64,000 nucleotides of DNA from Halorientalis persicus (GTDB lineage Archaea; Halobacteriota; Halobacteria; Halobacteriales; Haloarculaceae): positions 1 through 64,000 of the forward strand of contig NZ_FOCX01000015.1 in NCBI RefSeq assembly GCF_900110215.1. Direction: 5' to 3'. The notes beneath the pieces were generated by a model, which worked only from the letters and a program-made list of their open reading frames with translations, was not told the origin of the DNA and did no database searches. This document shows positions 59,544 through 64,000 of this stretch, piece after piece (the first letter of the stretch is position 1; the number at the start of each line of letters is the position of its first letter). The translations under genes were made by a program, and so were the position numbers.

Positions 59544-59577
59544 TACTCGGACACACGACTCGGGCCGCACAGACAGC

Positions 59578-59585
59578 TTTATATA
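59578..59585 (+). promoter_or_regulatory. Strong TATA box of leuA (TTTATATA)
   Basis: Consensus-like box in AT-rich 59577-59590, centred 26 nt before the GTG at 59607 and 33 nt before the ATG at 59614. It implies that transcription starts at about 59605-59610, so the earlier GTG at 59592 is upstream of the transcript. Confidence 0.7.
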
Positions 59586-59606
59586 CGATACGTGGCTTTG
59601 GAACAA

Positions 59607-60836
59607 GTGCTACAATGTCCAACGATACAGAGGGCACGTCGGGATCCCCGGCGGATCGAGTTCTTCCAGGGCACACTGGATTCCACTTCTGAGATTACAG
59701 AAGCACGCATTTTCGACACCACGCTGCGCGACGGTGAGCAGTCGCCACGCACGTCGTTCTCGTACGACGACAAACGCGAGATAGCGGCCGTGCTGGACGA
59801 CATGGGCACCCACGTCATCGAGGCGGGGTTCCCGGTCAACTCGGACGCGGAGTTCGAGGCCGTTCGCGACATCGCCGAGTCCGCACAGAACAGCGAAGTC
59901 TGTGGGTTAGCGCGCGTGGTCGAAGAGGACGTCGAGGCTGCACTCGACAGCGGCGTCGACCTGGTACACGTGTTCGTGTCTACCAGCGACGTTCAGCTGC
60001 AAGACTCCATGCACGCCACTCGCGAGGAGGCCAAACAGGCCGCCGTCGAGAGCGTCGAGCGTGTCACGGAGGCCGGCGTCGAGTGTATGTTCTCGCCGAT
60101 GGACGCCACGCGAACGGACGAAGACTTCCTGATCGAAGCCGTGCAGGCCGCCGACGAGGCGGGTGCCAGCTGGGTCAACATCCCCGACACCGTGGGGGTC
60201 GCCACGCCCGGGCGGTTCTACGACATGGTCGAGAAGGTGGTCGACGCGATCGACGCGCGCGTGGACGTTCACACACACGACGACTTCGGGCTGGCAGCGG
60301 CGAACGCCCTGTCCGGCTTCGAAGCTGGCGCGAGCCAGTCGCAGGTGTCGGTCAACGGCATCGGTGAGCGAGCCGGCAACGCGGCCTACGAGGAGGTCGT
60401 GATGGCGCTGGAATCGCTGTACGATGTCCAGACGCACATCGACACGACCCGTATCACCGAGCTGTCGCGGCTCGTCGAGGACCGGTCGTCGATTCCGGTG
60501 CCGGCGAACAAGCCGGTGGTCGGTGAGAACGCCTTCTCCCACGAGAGCGGCATCCACGCCGCGGGCGTCATCGAGAACTCGGACACGTTCGAGCCGGGCG
60601 TGATGACGCCGGAGATGGTCGGGGCCGAGCGCGAACTCGTCCTCGGGAAACACACCGGCCAGCACTCCGTCCGGGAGCGGCTGGTCGACGCCGGGTTCGA
60701 CCCCACCGAAGAAGAAGTACGGGAGGTCACCCGTCGCGTCAAAGACTACGGGGCCGAGAAAAAGCGGGTCACGATGGACGTGCTGGAGAAATTCGCCCGC
60801 GAAGTCGGCGTCACCGAGGAGGAGGTCCGGGTCTAA
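59607..60836 (+). CDS. leuA: 2-isopropylmalate synthase
   Basis: 409 aa from the GTG at 59607. The frame's first GTG, 59592, is within the promoter. The HMGL/DRE-TIM barrel is evident: ARIFDTTLRDGEQSPRTSFS (motif FDTTLRDGEQ), ASWVNIPDTVGVATP, VHTHDDFGLAAANALSG (His-x-His metal) and GERAGNAAYEEVVMAL; then the LKHSGIHA-like SHESGIHAAGV. It condenses 2-oxoisovalerate with acetyl-CoA. It lacks the C-terminal regulatory domain of the longest forms (about 500 aa), but the core is complete. The exact start is uncertain; see the finding. Confidence 0.88.
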   Translation: MLQCPTIQRARRDPRRIEFFQGTLDSTSEITEARIFDTTLRDGEQSPRTSFSYDDKREIAAVLDDMGTHVIEAGFPVNSDAEFEAVRDIAESAQNSEVCGLARVVEEDVEAALDSGVDLVHVFVSTSDVQLQDSMHATREEAKQAAVESVERVTEAGVECMFSPMDATRTDEDFLIEAVQAADEAGASWVNIPDTVGVATPGRFYDMVEKVVDAIDARVDVHTHDDFGLAAANALSGFEAGASQSQVSVNGIGERAGNAAYEEVVMALESLYDVQTHIDTTRITELSRLVEDRSSIPVPANKPVVGENAFSHESGIHAAGVIENSDTFEPGVMTPEMVGAERELVLGKHTGQHSVRERLVDAGFDPTEEEVREVTRRVKDYGAEKKRVTMDVLEKFAREVGVTEEEVRV

Positions 60837-60899: not shown

Positions 60900-60907
60900 G
60901 AATTATG
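60900..60907 (+). promoter_or_regulatory. TATA-like box of the ilvB leader
   Basis: GAATTATG, centred about 32 nt upstream of the leader ATG at 60935. This puts the likely start of transcription at about 60928-60934, so the leader ORF would be nearly leaderless. Confidence 0.5.
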
Positions 60908-60934: not shown

Positions 60935-61018
60935 ATGACCGCGCGTGCTGGACCCGGGACCGCCCTGGCACCCAGCGGCGCGCTCGTGATTCTCGCGGGT
61001 ATCGTAGGGGCCCTATAG
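60935..61018 (+). CDS. Putative ilv leader peptide, rich in Leu/Val/Ile
   Basis: 27 codons: begins MTARAGPGTALAPS and ends GALVILAGIVGAL before TAG. Seven of the last 11 residues are Leu, Ile or Val, the products of the pathway encoded next. It starts directly after the predicted transcription start and ends within a hairpin. No known protein matches this size; the composition is the argument for a regulatory leader rather than a functional protein. Confidence 0.6.
   Translation: MTARAGPGTALAPSGALVILAGIVGAL
60961..60980 (+). promoter_or_regulatory. First stem in the ilv leader
   Basis: CGCCCTGG (60961-60968) can pair with CCAG-C-GGCG (60972-60980), CTGG/CCAG plus CGCC/GGCG with one bulge and a 3-base loop. 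It lies just before the Leu/Val/Ile codons, so a ribosome at those codons would cover or follow it. Confidence 0.4.
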
Positions 61019-61025
61019 CCCCTAC
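61004..61025 (+). promoter_or_regulatory. Hairpin containing the leader stop codon
   Basis: Arms GTAGGGGC (61004-61011) and GCCCCTAC (61018-61025), perfect, with loop CCTATA. The leader TAG (61016-61018) is in the loop and stem. A ribosome stalled on the Leu/Val/Ile codons would keep this stem from forming. No U-run follows, so it may not be a classical terminator. Confidence 0.6.
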
Positions 61026-61068
61026 ACACGATTTCACCCCGAATTCTGCAGCACAGTCGGTAGCCATC

Positions 61069-61080: not shown

Positions 61081-61122
61081 ATGCAACGACCACGCACACA
61101 ACGGACGGAGGAACGGACATGA
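61081..61122 (+). CDS. Second micro-ORF, coupled to ilvB
   Basis: 13 codons, MQRPRTQRTEERT, ending TGA at 61120-61122 and overlapping the ilvB ATG (61119-61121) as ATGA. Preceded by SD AGGAGG (61069-61074), and ilvB's own GGAGG (61107-61111) lies inside it. Most likely a translational-coupling element rather than a functional peptide. Confidence 0.55.
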   Translation: MQRPRTQRTEERT

Positions 61123-62912
61123 GCGATAGCGCACAGACACCACACGCGGACGAAGTCGAGACGGAAGCGACGGACGACCGACCGGAGGAACCCGAGGGCG
61201 AGAGCCACGTCGAACCCATAGAGACGGGCGCTGACGCGGTCGTCGCGGCCCTGAAATCGGCCGGCGTCGACTACCTGTTCGGCGTGCAGGGCGGGGCGAT
61301 CATGCCCGTCTACGACGCTCTCTACCAGGAGTCGGACATGACGCACGTCACGATGGCCCACGAACAGGGGGCCGTCCACGCCGCCGACGCCTACGGGATC
61401 GTCACGGGCGACCCCGGCGTCTGTATGGCCACTTCGGGCCCGGGCGCGACGAATCTGGTGACCGGCATCGCCGACGCCAGCATGGACTCGGACCCGCTGA
61501 TCGCGCTGACGGGCCAGGTCCCGACGGATCTGGTGGGCAACGACGCCTTCCAGGAGACCGACACCATCGGCGTCACCCAGCCGATAACCAAGTACAACCA
61601 CTTCGCCTCGGACGCCGACGAGGTCGGCGACGACGTGAGTACGGCCTTCGCACTGGCCGACGAGGGTCGGCAGGGGCCCACGCTCGTCGACCTGCCCAAG
61701 GACGTAACCCAGCCCGAGACCGACGTGGAACCGGGCAAGCCGGAGACGCCGGACACGTACAACCCGCCGGAGAAGGCAGACGAGGCCGCCGTCTCCGAGG
61801 CGGCCGACGTGATCGCCGACGCCGAGAAGCCGATCATCCTCGCGGGCGGCGGCGTCATCAAGGCCAACGCCAGCGACGAACTGCGGGCCTTCGCGAAGGA
61901 ACACGAGATCCCGGTCATGACGACGATGCCCGGGACGGGTGCCTTCGACCAGACCCACGAGCTGTCGATGGGCATCGCCGGGATGCACGGCACCGGCTAC
62001 GCCAACATGGCGATTACGCTGACCGACTGTATGCTCGCCATCGGGACGCGGTTCGACGACCGGCTGACCGGCGACGTGAAGACGTTCGCCCCGGACGCCG
62101 ATATCGTCCACGTCGACATCGATCCGGCCGAGATCAGCAAGAACGTCCAGGCCGACTACCCGCTGCTGGGCGACGCCAAGGCGGTGCTCGACCAGCTGGG
62201 CGACGCCATGACGGACTCGCCCGAGGCCGACGCCTGGCGTGAACAGTGCCAGACCTGGAAAGACGAGTACCCGCTGGACTACGAGATGCCGGAAGACCGG
62301 CCGCTCAAGCCCCAGTACATCGTCGAGCAGTTCGACGAGGCCATGCCCGAAGACACCATCGTCACGGCCGGTGTCGGCCAACACCAGATGTGGGCCTGGC
62401 AGTACTGGACCTGGACGGAGCCCCGGACGTGGGTTACCTCCCACGGGCTGGGGACGATGGGCTACGGCTTCCCCGCGGCCATCGGGGCGAAACTGGCCAA
62501 ACCCGACACGGAGGTCATCGCCTTCGAGGGCGACGGCTCGTTCCTGATGACGAGTCAGGAACTCTCCGTGGCGGTGCGGGAGAACCTCGACATTACCATC
62601 GTCGTCCTGAACAACGAGGCAGTCGGGATGGTCCGCCAGTGGCAAGACGGCTTCTACGAGGGGCGCCGGATGGCCTCGGAGTACCCGTGGGTACCCGAGT
62701 TCGACAAACTGGCGGAGGCCTACGGCGCACGCGGTTTCCGGCTGGAGGATTACGACGAGGTCGACGAGGTCATCGAGGCCGCACTGGACTACGACGGGCC
62801 GGCGGTCGTCGACGTGATCATCGACCCCGAAGAGAACGTGTATCCGATGGTGCCGAGTGGCGGTGACAACAGCCTGTTCGCGCTGTCGGAAGACCATCTG
62901 GACGAGATCTAA
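61119..62912 (+). CDS. ilvB: Acetolactate synthase, large subunit
   Basis: 597 aa, start MSDSAQTPHADEVETEATDD, about 40 acidic residues before the fold. The TPP site glutamate is in MAHEQGAVHAADAYG, the FAD region in AIGTRFDDRLTGDVKTFA, and the TPP/Mg motif is FEGDGSFLMTSQELSVAV ending in VVLNNEAVG. It condenses two pyruvates (or pyruvate and 2-oxobutyrate). The start is preceded by GGAGG (61107-61111) and by the coupled micro-ORF. The small subunit follows after 2 nt. Confidence 0.95.
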   Translation: MSDSAQTPHADEVETEATDDRPEEPEGESHVEPIETGADAVVAALKSAGVDYLFGVQGGAIMPVYDALYQESDMTHVTMAHEQGAVHAADAYGIVTGDPGVCMATSGPGATNLVTGIADASMDSDPLIALTGQVPTDLVGNDAFQETDTIGVTQPITKYNHFASDADEVGDDVSTAFALADEGRQGPTLVDLPKDVTQPETDVEPGKPETPDTYNPPEKADEAAVSEAADVIADAEKPIILAGGGVIKANASDELRAFAKEHEIPVMTTMPGTGAFDQTHELSMGIAGMHGTGYANMAITLTDCMLAIGTRFDDRLTGDVKTFAPDADIVHVDIDPAEISKNVQADYPLLGDAKAVLDQLGDAMTDSPEADAWREQCQTWKDEYPLDYEMPEDRPLKPQYIVEQFDEAMPEDTIVTAGVGQHQMWAWQYWTWTEPRTWVTSHGLGTMGYGFPAAIGAKLAKPDTEVIAFEGDGSFLMTSQELSVAVRENLDITIVVLNNEAVGMVRQWQDGFYEGRRMASEYPWVPEFDKLAEAYGARGFRLEDYDEVDEVIEAALDYDGPAVVDVIIDPEENVYPMVPSGGDNSLFALSEDHLDEI

Positions 62913-62914
62913 CG

Positions 62915-63562
62915 ATGACAGGAAAACTTCCAGGGCCGGGCCCGGGCGAGCGGATGCGACCCGAGGGTCGGCGTAACGAGGACGGTATTCGTATCGACCC
63001 CGAAGCGGAGGCGAAACACGAACCGCGTCGCGCGGTACTGTCGGCGCTGGTCGAACACAAGCCGGGTGTCCTGGCGGAGGTCTCCGGTCTGTTCAGCCGT
63101 CGGCAGTTCAATATAGAGAGTCTCACGGTTGGTACAACCGTCGACGAGAGCCGGGCGCGCATGACCATCGTCATCGAGGAGACACGACCCGGGATCCAGC
63201 AGGCCAAAAAGCAGCTGCGGAAACTGGTTCCCGTGGTTTCGGTGCGAGAGCTGGATCACGATTCGGTCCAGCGAGAACTGGTGATCGTGAAGGTCAACGG
63301 CGAGGAACCGGACAAGGTCCACGCCATCACGGAGATGTACGGCGGCGAGACCCTCGACGCGGGGCCCCGGACGATCACGGTCGAGATCACCGGCAACGAA
63401 CAGATGATCGACGACGCCATCGACGCGTACAAGCAGTTCGGCATCCGGGAAATCGTCCGGACCGGCTACGCGGCGCTGGCACGTGGCGAACAGCAGACGG
63501 CGGCAGTCGAACCGGAAGTGAAACTGACAGCGGACACAGAGGTGCCAGCAGACGATGACTGA
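62915..63562 (+). CDS. ilvN: Acetolactate synthase, small regulatory subunit
   Basis: 215 aa. ACT domain (residues about 40-115: [20 protein letters not shown] and [19 protein letters not shown]), then a C-terminal ALS_ss_C-like domain. It binds valine and feeds back on IlvB. The N-terminal tail ([20 protein letters not shown]) and acidic C-terminal tail are haloarchaeal additions. Overlaps ilvC by 8 nt. Confidence 0.93.
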
Positions 63563-64000
63563 CGAGTTTACCAACGAGATCTACTACGACGAAGACGCAG
63601 ACGTGTCGCACATCGAAGACAAGACCGTGGCCGTGCTGGGCTACGGCAGCCAGGGTCACGCCCACGCGCTGAACCTCCAGGACAGCGGCGTCGACGTGGT
63701 CGTCGGCCTCCGGGAGGGGTCGTCCTCGCGTGCGGCCGCCCAGGATGAAGGGCTCGAAGTGACGACGCCGGTCGACGCGGCGTCCCGGGGCGACATCGTG
63801 AAGATGCTCGTTCCCGACACCGTCCAGCCCGCGGTCTACGAGCAGATCCGGGACGAACTGGACGCCGGCGACACGCTCCAGTTCGCCCACGGGTTCAACA
63901 TCCACTACGGACAGATCGAACCGCCGGAGGACGTGGACGTGACGATGGTCGCGCCAAAGTCGCCCGGTCACCTCGTCCGCCGCAACTACGAGAAAGGAGA
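63555..64000 (+). CDS. ilvC: Ketol-acid reductoisomerase (partial, cut by window end)
   Basis: 148 codons are visible, starting [20 protein letters not shown]. The nucleotide-binding site is [20 protein letters not shown] (GxGxxG at about residue 27), with [11 protein letters not shown] and [20 protein letters not shown] following as in IlvC. It reduces and rearranges acetolactate. The start overlaps ilvN by 8 nt. Confidence 0.95.

Follow-up and report, generated by a model that had tools for sequence, protein, structure and literature searches.

Introduction

Control of an operon by a ribosome that stalls on an upstream leader peptide is a textbook bacterial mechanism. Among described systems, the nearest by function to the element reported here are the ilvBNC attenuators of Corynebacterium and Actinobacteria, in which a short conserved ORF and leader hairpins likewise precede genes for the same enzyme and the same end products (PMC10272879, PMC11857589). 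The trp, his, leu and ilvGMEDA attenuators of enterobacteria also set control codons for the pathway product beside RNA structure. In tnaC and erm, the position of the ribosome near the end or stop codon of the leader ORF controls downstream RNA, and the ligand is sensed via the nascent peptide. For Archaea, no leader-peptide attenuator was found in the literature searched, and the original prediction likewise knew of none established in haloarchaea; coverage of Haloferax volcanii ribosome profiling was incomplete, and a mention there is not excluded. Nor does ilvB feature among the uORFs tabulated in the start-site study of H. volcanii (PMC4983044).

Here we describe a leader ORF before ilvBNC that is conserved across nearly the whole class Halobacteria. 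Unlike the Corynebacterium system, to which no sequence relation has been shown, the haloarchaeal element is archaeal, has a predicted leaderless start, carries its stop codon in a hairpin loop, lacks a U-run terminator and has a second uORF overlapping ilvB. In contrast to the enterobacterial attenuators, no set of mutually exclusive hairpins was found in it, and whereas tnaC and erm sense a ligand via the nascent peptide, conservation here at the level of codons and hairpin argues for sensing of tRNA supply. That the element works like bacterial leader-peptide attenuation is inferred from sequence alone, and membership in any bacterial family is not claimed.

Results

The window is the whole 64,000-nt stretch of Halorientalis persicus DNA that was analyzed (contig NZ_FOCX01000015.1, positions 1 to 64,000). 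Its features around ilvB are as follows.

60900..60907, plus strand: TATA-like promoter element GAATTATG, recognized by sequence, 35 nt 5' of the uORF1 ATG
60935..61018, plus strand: uORF1, leader peptide MTARAGPGTALAPSGALVILAGIVGAL with stop TAG, predicted leaderless start
60941..60981, plus strand: H1, hairpin within uORF1, its 3' arm just 5' of the Leu/Ile/Val-rich codons
60983..61006, plus strand: proposed control codons overall, based on Leu/Ile/Val enrichment at codons -6 to -1 and the invariant GTA
60983-60994, plus strand: proposed control codons Leu-Val-Ile-Leu
61001-61006, plus strand: proposed control codons of the class-wide Ile-Val pair, ATC-GTA
61004..61025, plus strand: H2, hairpin GTAGGGGC-CCTATA-GCCCCTAC with the uORF1 stop codon in its loop, based on sequence, conservation and compensatory changes
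61023..61040, plus strand: C/A/T-rich tract 3' of the CCCC arm, part of the G-depleted tract of relatives
61081..61122, plus strand: uORF2, MQRPRTQRTEERT, its TGA overlapping the ilvB start (ATGA)
61118..61125, plus strand: start region of ilvB, CATGAGCG; the control-codon region holds a complementary stretch, CGCTCGTG, at 60981-60988
61119..62912, plus strand: ilvB, acetolactate synthase large subunit (TIGR00118, 715.7 bits)
62915..63562, plus strand: ilvN, acetolactate synthase small subunit (NF008864, TIGR00119)
63555..64000, plus strand: ilvC, ketol-acid reductoisomerase, truncated by the window end (TIGR00465)

As the original prediction had claimed, uORF1 begins with ATG at 60935 and runs for 27 codons to TAG at 61016-61018, details that held without exception. 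Its further claims, that seven of the final 11 residues are Leu, Ile or Val, that a perfect 8-bp hairpin (61004-61025) encloses the stop codon, and that the operon downstream is ilvBNC, also held; the H2 stem is formed by GTAGGGGC (61004-61011) and GCCCCTAC (61018-61025) around the CCTATA loop, and ilvB, ilvN and ilvC were identified with NCBIfam. The window IlvB is 96% identical to the IlvB of H. pallida and H. regularis. A near-leaderless transcript starting at the ORF, likewise predicted, is supported by the 35-nt distance from TATA-like element to ATG, which is that expected for a leaderless transcript; the start is inferred from this spacing and was not measured. An in-frame ATG at 60905 was rejected as the uORF1 start, lying as it does inside the TATA-like element, where it cannot start a leaderless mRNA. 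No match to a known riboswitch or leader family was obtained at gathering score in an Rfam search of the window, and no T-run terminator follows H2 there.

To define the spread of the element, 80 ilvB loci were fetched for a first comparison, and nearly all had a short upstream ORF ending in IVG plus one or two residues. A strict DNA pattern, ATYGTAGGGGN{1,9}GCCCC, was searched in 391 sampled Halobacteria genomes with the reversed pattern as control. It was present in 294, nearly always once per genome, and the control was almost empty. Variants occurred in 88 of the 97 remaining genomes: GTAGGGG...CCCC with another inner pair, Leu-Val, Met-Val or Val-Val for Ile-Val, or a compensated hairpin. 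Seven of the 97 lack the element (three genomes of one genus in family f4, one of f5 and three of f11) and two could not be judged, so the element is found in about 380 of the 391. The ilvB context was not checked for every strict match; 180 loci were placed before ilvB in the right orientation, and the element lies 5' of ilvB wherever checked, in most families sampled. Among about 310 genomes of the phylum outside the class, pattern matches were at chance level. All of this evidence is comparative. Because the leaders are related by descent, the counts cannot be read as independent trials; filtering at 86% similarity to reduce redundancy left 123 non-redundant leaders. The observation is far beyond chance.

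Two further pattern matches look like chance: one outside the class (genome G699), which has an in-frame stop and follows an unrelated coding end, and a second one in the H. persicus genome itself, which has no in-frame stop. No leader precedes ilvB at loci L132, L266 and L269 of one genus or at L139-L141 and L270 of families f5 and f11, where ilvB sits close behind another coding frame. Such leader-less Halobacteria loci are natural controls for the function of the element.

The leader is a reading-frame feature, as sequence comparison demonstrates, with translation itself inferred. Relatives carry TTTATTAT-like boxes mostly 33-36 nt 5' of the ATG, and in the 123 non-redundant leaders the start is the predicted leaderless ATG. 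In 114 of 133 leaders, the first ATG downstream of the TATA box shares the frame of the GTA-GGG codons; the others are mostly cases of a mis-picked TATA box or an overlapping ATGTGATG. Leader length varies from 14 to 38 codons, yet the frame is kept. In 117/123 non-redundant leaders the stop codon starts within the loop, 5' of the second arm of H2, and in 126 distinct leaders it is TAG (103), TGA (13) or TAA (10). Spacing between the GGGG and CCCC arms ranges from 5 to 9 nt (5 nt in 32/123, 8 nt in 77/123) and changes mostly by three nt. The register from IVG to the stop also varies, the peptide ending IVGV-stop, IVGA-stop or IVGAx-stop, with four extra residues in six Natrialbaceae-type loci.

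A leader-peptide attenuator is expected to have end-product codons at a set place in its ORF and an RNA structure that a ribosome on those codons can alter. The first expectation is met. Leu, Ile and Val make up 36% of the eight codons before the Ile-Val pair, versus 11% in leader codons 2-11 and, when the other two frames are read, 19% and 4%; at codons -6, -5, -4 and -2 the share is 42-56%. Invariance is at the codon level: Val is GTA in all 123 leaders, a codon that ilvB of these loci uses for just 0.7% of its Val positions. Ile is ATT in 89 and ATC in 30 (119/123 together), and ATT is 7% of Ile codons in ilvB. CTT is raised as well, to 30% of leader Leu codons versus 2.4% in ilvB. Rare or wobble-read codons at the sensing positions would fit a slow, supply-sensitive step.

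The second expectation is met by H2 (GTAGGGG...CCCC), which is predicted in 126/126 leaders and begins at the Val codon. Within the 123-member set its four G-C pairs never vary. At the innermost position 91% have a standard pair; C-G, U-G and U-A all occur, and this pair covaries by switching between C-G and U-A. Five genomes show compensatory double changes that keep both pairing and GTA and alter Gly-Ala. The loci, which fail the strict pattern, are L113 (arms GTACGGGC/GCCCGCAC, peptide IVRAR), L048 and L263 (arms GTAGGGCC/GGCCCTC and GGCCCTAC, peptides IVGPV and IVGPA), and L120 and L265 (arms GTACGGGCC/GGCCCAC, peptide RVRAA). Support for H1 is moderate: it folds in different clades with different arm sequences, and synonymous resamplings give poorer folds than the leaders themselves (mean z -1.07, with 34% of leaders reaching the 5% level or lower). 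We found no exclusive 1:2/2:3/3:4 set of hairpins, H1 and H2 being compatible, and region-by-region pairing revealed no conserved antiterminator. The only alternative structure seen is a helix between the control region and the ilvB start, in part of the class. A MAFFT alignment of 98 whole leaders contained too many gaps for RNAalifold to give a useful result.

The original prediction had named conservation of the Leu/Ile/Val run across related genomes as a test of its idea of peptide-leader attenuation of ilvBNC. The test was run and the idea passed, since the leader, its frame, the Leu/Ile/Val-rich end, the stop codon in a hairpin and the ilvB context are conserved across nearly the whole class; stalling and a response to branched-chain amino acids remain inferred. 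One correction is needed. The invariant part is the Ile-Val pair (ATY-GTA) with the hairpin, not the long Leu/Ile/Val run, which in its seven-residue form is lineage-specific. H1 and the second short ORF coupled to ilvB, which also belong to the unit, had been missed.

Downstream of H2, relatives have a G-poor tract of about 16 nt (3.6% G over +2 to +16). The U-run that a trp-type intrinsic-terminator attenuator requires is mostly missing, four or more T within 30 nt occurring in only 12/123 leaders; the absence of a U-run, also predicted, thus held in the window and mostly in relatives. The next start codon stands at a nearly fixed place, a median of 89 nt from the Ile codon (quartiles 83-100). 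Downstream of H2, the first ATG to appear has the overlap frame in 94 leaders and another frame in 12; in none does it share the ilvB frame. uORF2 overlaps ilvB by the four nucleotides ATGA in 94/123 non-redundant leaders, meeting the stop-start overlap expected of a termination-reinitiation pair, and in about half of the loci without uORF2 the ilvB ATG occupies that fixed place. uORF2 contains only 1.3-1.8% Leu, Ile and Val, and IlvB residues 2-26 contain 5% versus 18% in the rest of IlvB. The opening part of the output message thus demands few of the residues in short supply.

In H. volcanii, stop-start overlaps couple translation strictly (PMC6728339, PMC10666635), ATGA being the most frequent coupled form, and reinitiation is already lost when the gap is about 22 nt (PMC10666635). 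Ribosomes should therefore pass from uORF2 to ilvB and not from uORF1 to uORF2, since the distance of about 60-70 nt between the two uORFs exceeds the ~22-nt limit and rules out reinitiation. Unlike the overlapping genes of H. volcanii, the upstream partner here is an ORF of 3-45 residues, not a functional protein gene. A motif, GYAYCGNTTTC, lies about 30 nt 3' of H2, before the next start codon (e.g. L076, L062 and L057). No conserved pairing above control linked the uORF2 start or this motif to the control region, the tract or H1.

Discussion

The best explanation of these data, and a likely one, is that the element is a cis-acting, ribosome-mediated attenuator of ilvBNC responding to the supply of Ile and Val (and Leu). 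The ORF, its frame and codons, the hairpins, uORF2 and their conservation are shown by sequence; ribosome stalling, the direction in which it moves expression and the final step are inferred, with no experiment and no expression, 3'-end or ribosome data. In the proposed mechanism, the mRNA would begin at or just 5' of the uORF1 ATG, as inferred from promoter spacing, and be translated as a leaderless message. The ribosome would meet H1, followed by a short Leu/Ile/Val-rich run closing with the invariant Ile-Val at the foot of H2. When Ile-tRNA or Val-tRNA is scarce, it would wait on ATY-GTA, covering the 5' arm and holding H2 open, and the downstream message (uORF2, and ilvB via the ATGA overlap) would be made and translated. 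When both are plentiful, the ribosome would reach the stop codon in the H2 loop and leave, H2 would close, and expression would fall.

The original prediction held that the outcome may be translational rather than termination; the choice between transcription and translation is undecided. For the class as a whole we lean, by inference, toward transcription: premature termination or a hairpin-assisted pause just after H2 has roughly equal odds of being right or wrong, and ranks a little above a block to translation, which we consider the weaker prospect. mRNA processing is an improbable remainder. H2 and the G-poor tract could conceivably end or pause transcription, and one hairpin tested in H. 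volcanii gave 59% termination (PMC7237163). FttA prefers U-rich RNA (PMC11616081).

Several points count against an attenuator. The T stretch, the usual signal and main terminator motif in H. volcanii (PMC7237163), is absent after H2, and no conserved antiterminator emerged from region-by-region pairing. A ribosome stalled at the Leu/Ile/Val codons -6 to -4 would sit too far 5' to cover H2. Finally, the core GGGG/CCCC pairs hardly vary, and some other constraint may explain part of this invariance.

The rival that survives best, itself unlikely, is purely translational attenuation, in which the ilvB start is masked by pairing with the control-codon region and is freed only when a stalled ribosome occupies the control codons. 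In its favor, pairing excess between the two regions is 0.20 versus 0.04 in segment-shuffled controls, and own pairs are stronger than swapped pairs over 123 loci (p below 0.0002; p = 0.23 for a control ilvB segment). L122 and L114 carry a changed ilvB start (ATGACAG) matched by a changed control region (CTGTC), and in the window 8 bp are possible between 60981-60988 and 61118-61125. However, the pairing is strong only in Natrialbaceae-type and a few other loci, is near random elsewhere and is weak in the window; the covariation test is limited by the many ilvB genes that open with ATGAGCGA; and H2 and the G-poor tract are left unexplained.

Three other rivals are very unlikely. An arrest peptide, whose nascent IVGA end rather than codon supply would halt the ribosome and control ilvB, could account for the nearly invariant IVG at the very end of uORF1, but five genomes alter Gly or Ala when the hairpin alters, the register to the stop varies, and the invariance of GTA is one of codon. 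Alternatively, the palindrome GTAGGGG-CCCCTAC could be a repressor site 3' of the transcription start, the ORF being incidental. The full palindrome does occur in Halorientalis and several genera of other families, and an operator inside the transcribed region would suit a roadblock. Against this, half-site spacing varies from 5 to 9 nt, there is usually one site per genome, the leaderless-ATG frame and a loop stop codon in three forms are kept, and Leu/Ile/Val codons precede. An unregulated uORF that constantly lowers ilvB expression without sensing amino acids has precedent in uORFs reported in long 5'-UTRs of H. volcanii (PMC4983044), but leaves unexplained the Leu/Ile/Val enrichment at the ORF end alone, the rare Ile and Val codons at a fixed place, the conserved hairpin around the stop and the placement before the pathway making these amino acids.

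Returning to the ribosome-mediated attenuator, a bolder reading, which we hold only tentatively, is a class-wide archaeal attenuation independent of bacterial origin. It would combine a leaderless start, sensing by a rare Val codon, a stop-enclosing hairpin, a termination step that relies on an archaeal factor such as FttA (aCPSF1), or on pausing at a hairpin, rather than on a U-run, and a second uORF handing ribosomes to ilvB. If the attenuator is real, haloarchaea sense Ile, Leu and Val by a ribosome-operated switch known so far from bacteria, ribosome sensing extends to leaderless mRNAs without U-run terminators, and direct tests are possible in genetically tractable haloarchaeal species.

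A simple codon-count scan for similar leaders of trpE and hisG found none conserved within 1.5 kb in 29 genomes each. Predicted uORFs precede the tryptophan--tRNA ligase gene HVO_A0127 and pheS HVO_2948 in H. volcanii (PMC4983044 Table 2) and may be further candidates for haloarchaeal leader peptides. The neighboring leuA (59592-60836) poses a separate puzzle. Its start region (59577-59720) offers no convincing in-frame start codon; a leaderless ATG at about 59614, after TTTATATA, opens MSNDTEGTSGSPADRVLPGHTGFHF followed by a stop, in a frame other than that of leuA. The block GGCGGATCGAGTTCTTCCAGGGCACACTGGA at the leuA start is nearly invariant. In 63/66 relatives the leaderless ATG is in the same other frame, and 52/66 lack ATG, GTG or TTG in the LeuA frame after the predicted transcription start. 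A conserved programmed frameshift or non-AUG start is a possibility suggested by sequence alone. This start puzzle has been noted for Haloferax leuA2 HVO_1510 (PMC8305020), and here it spans many genera.
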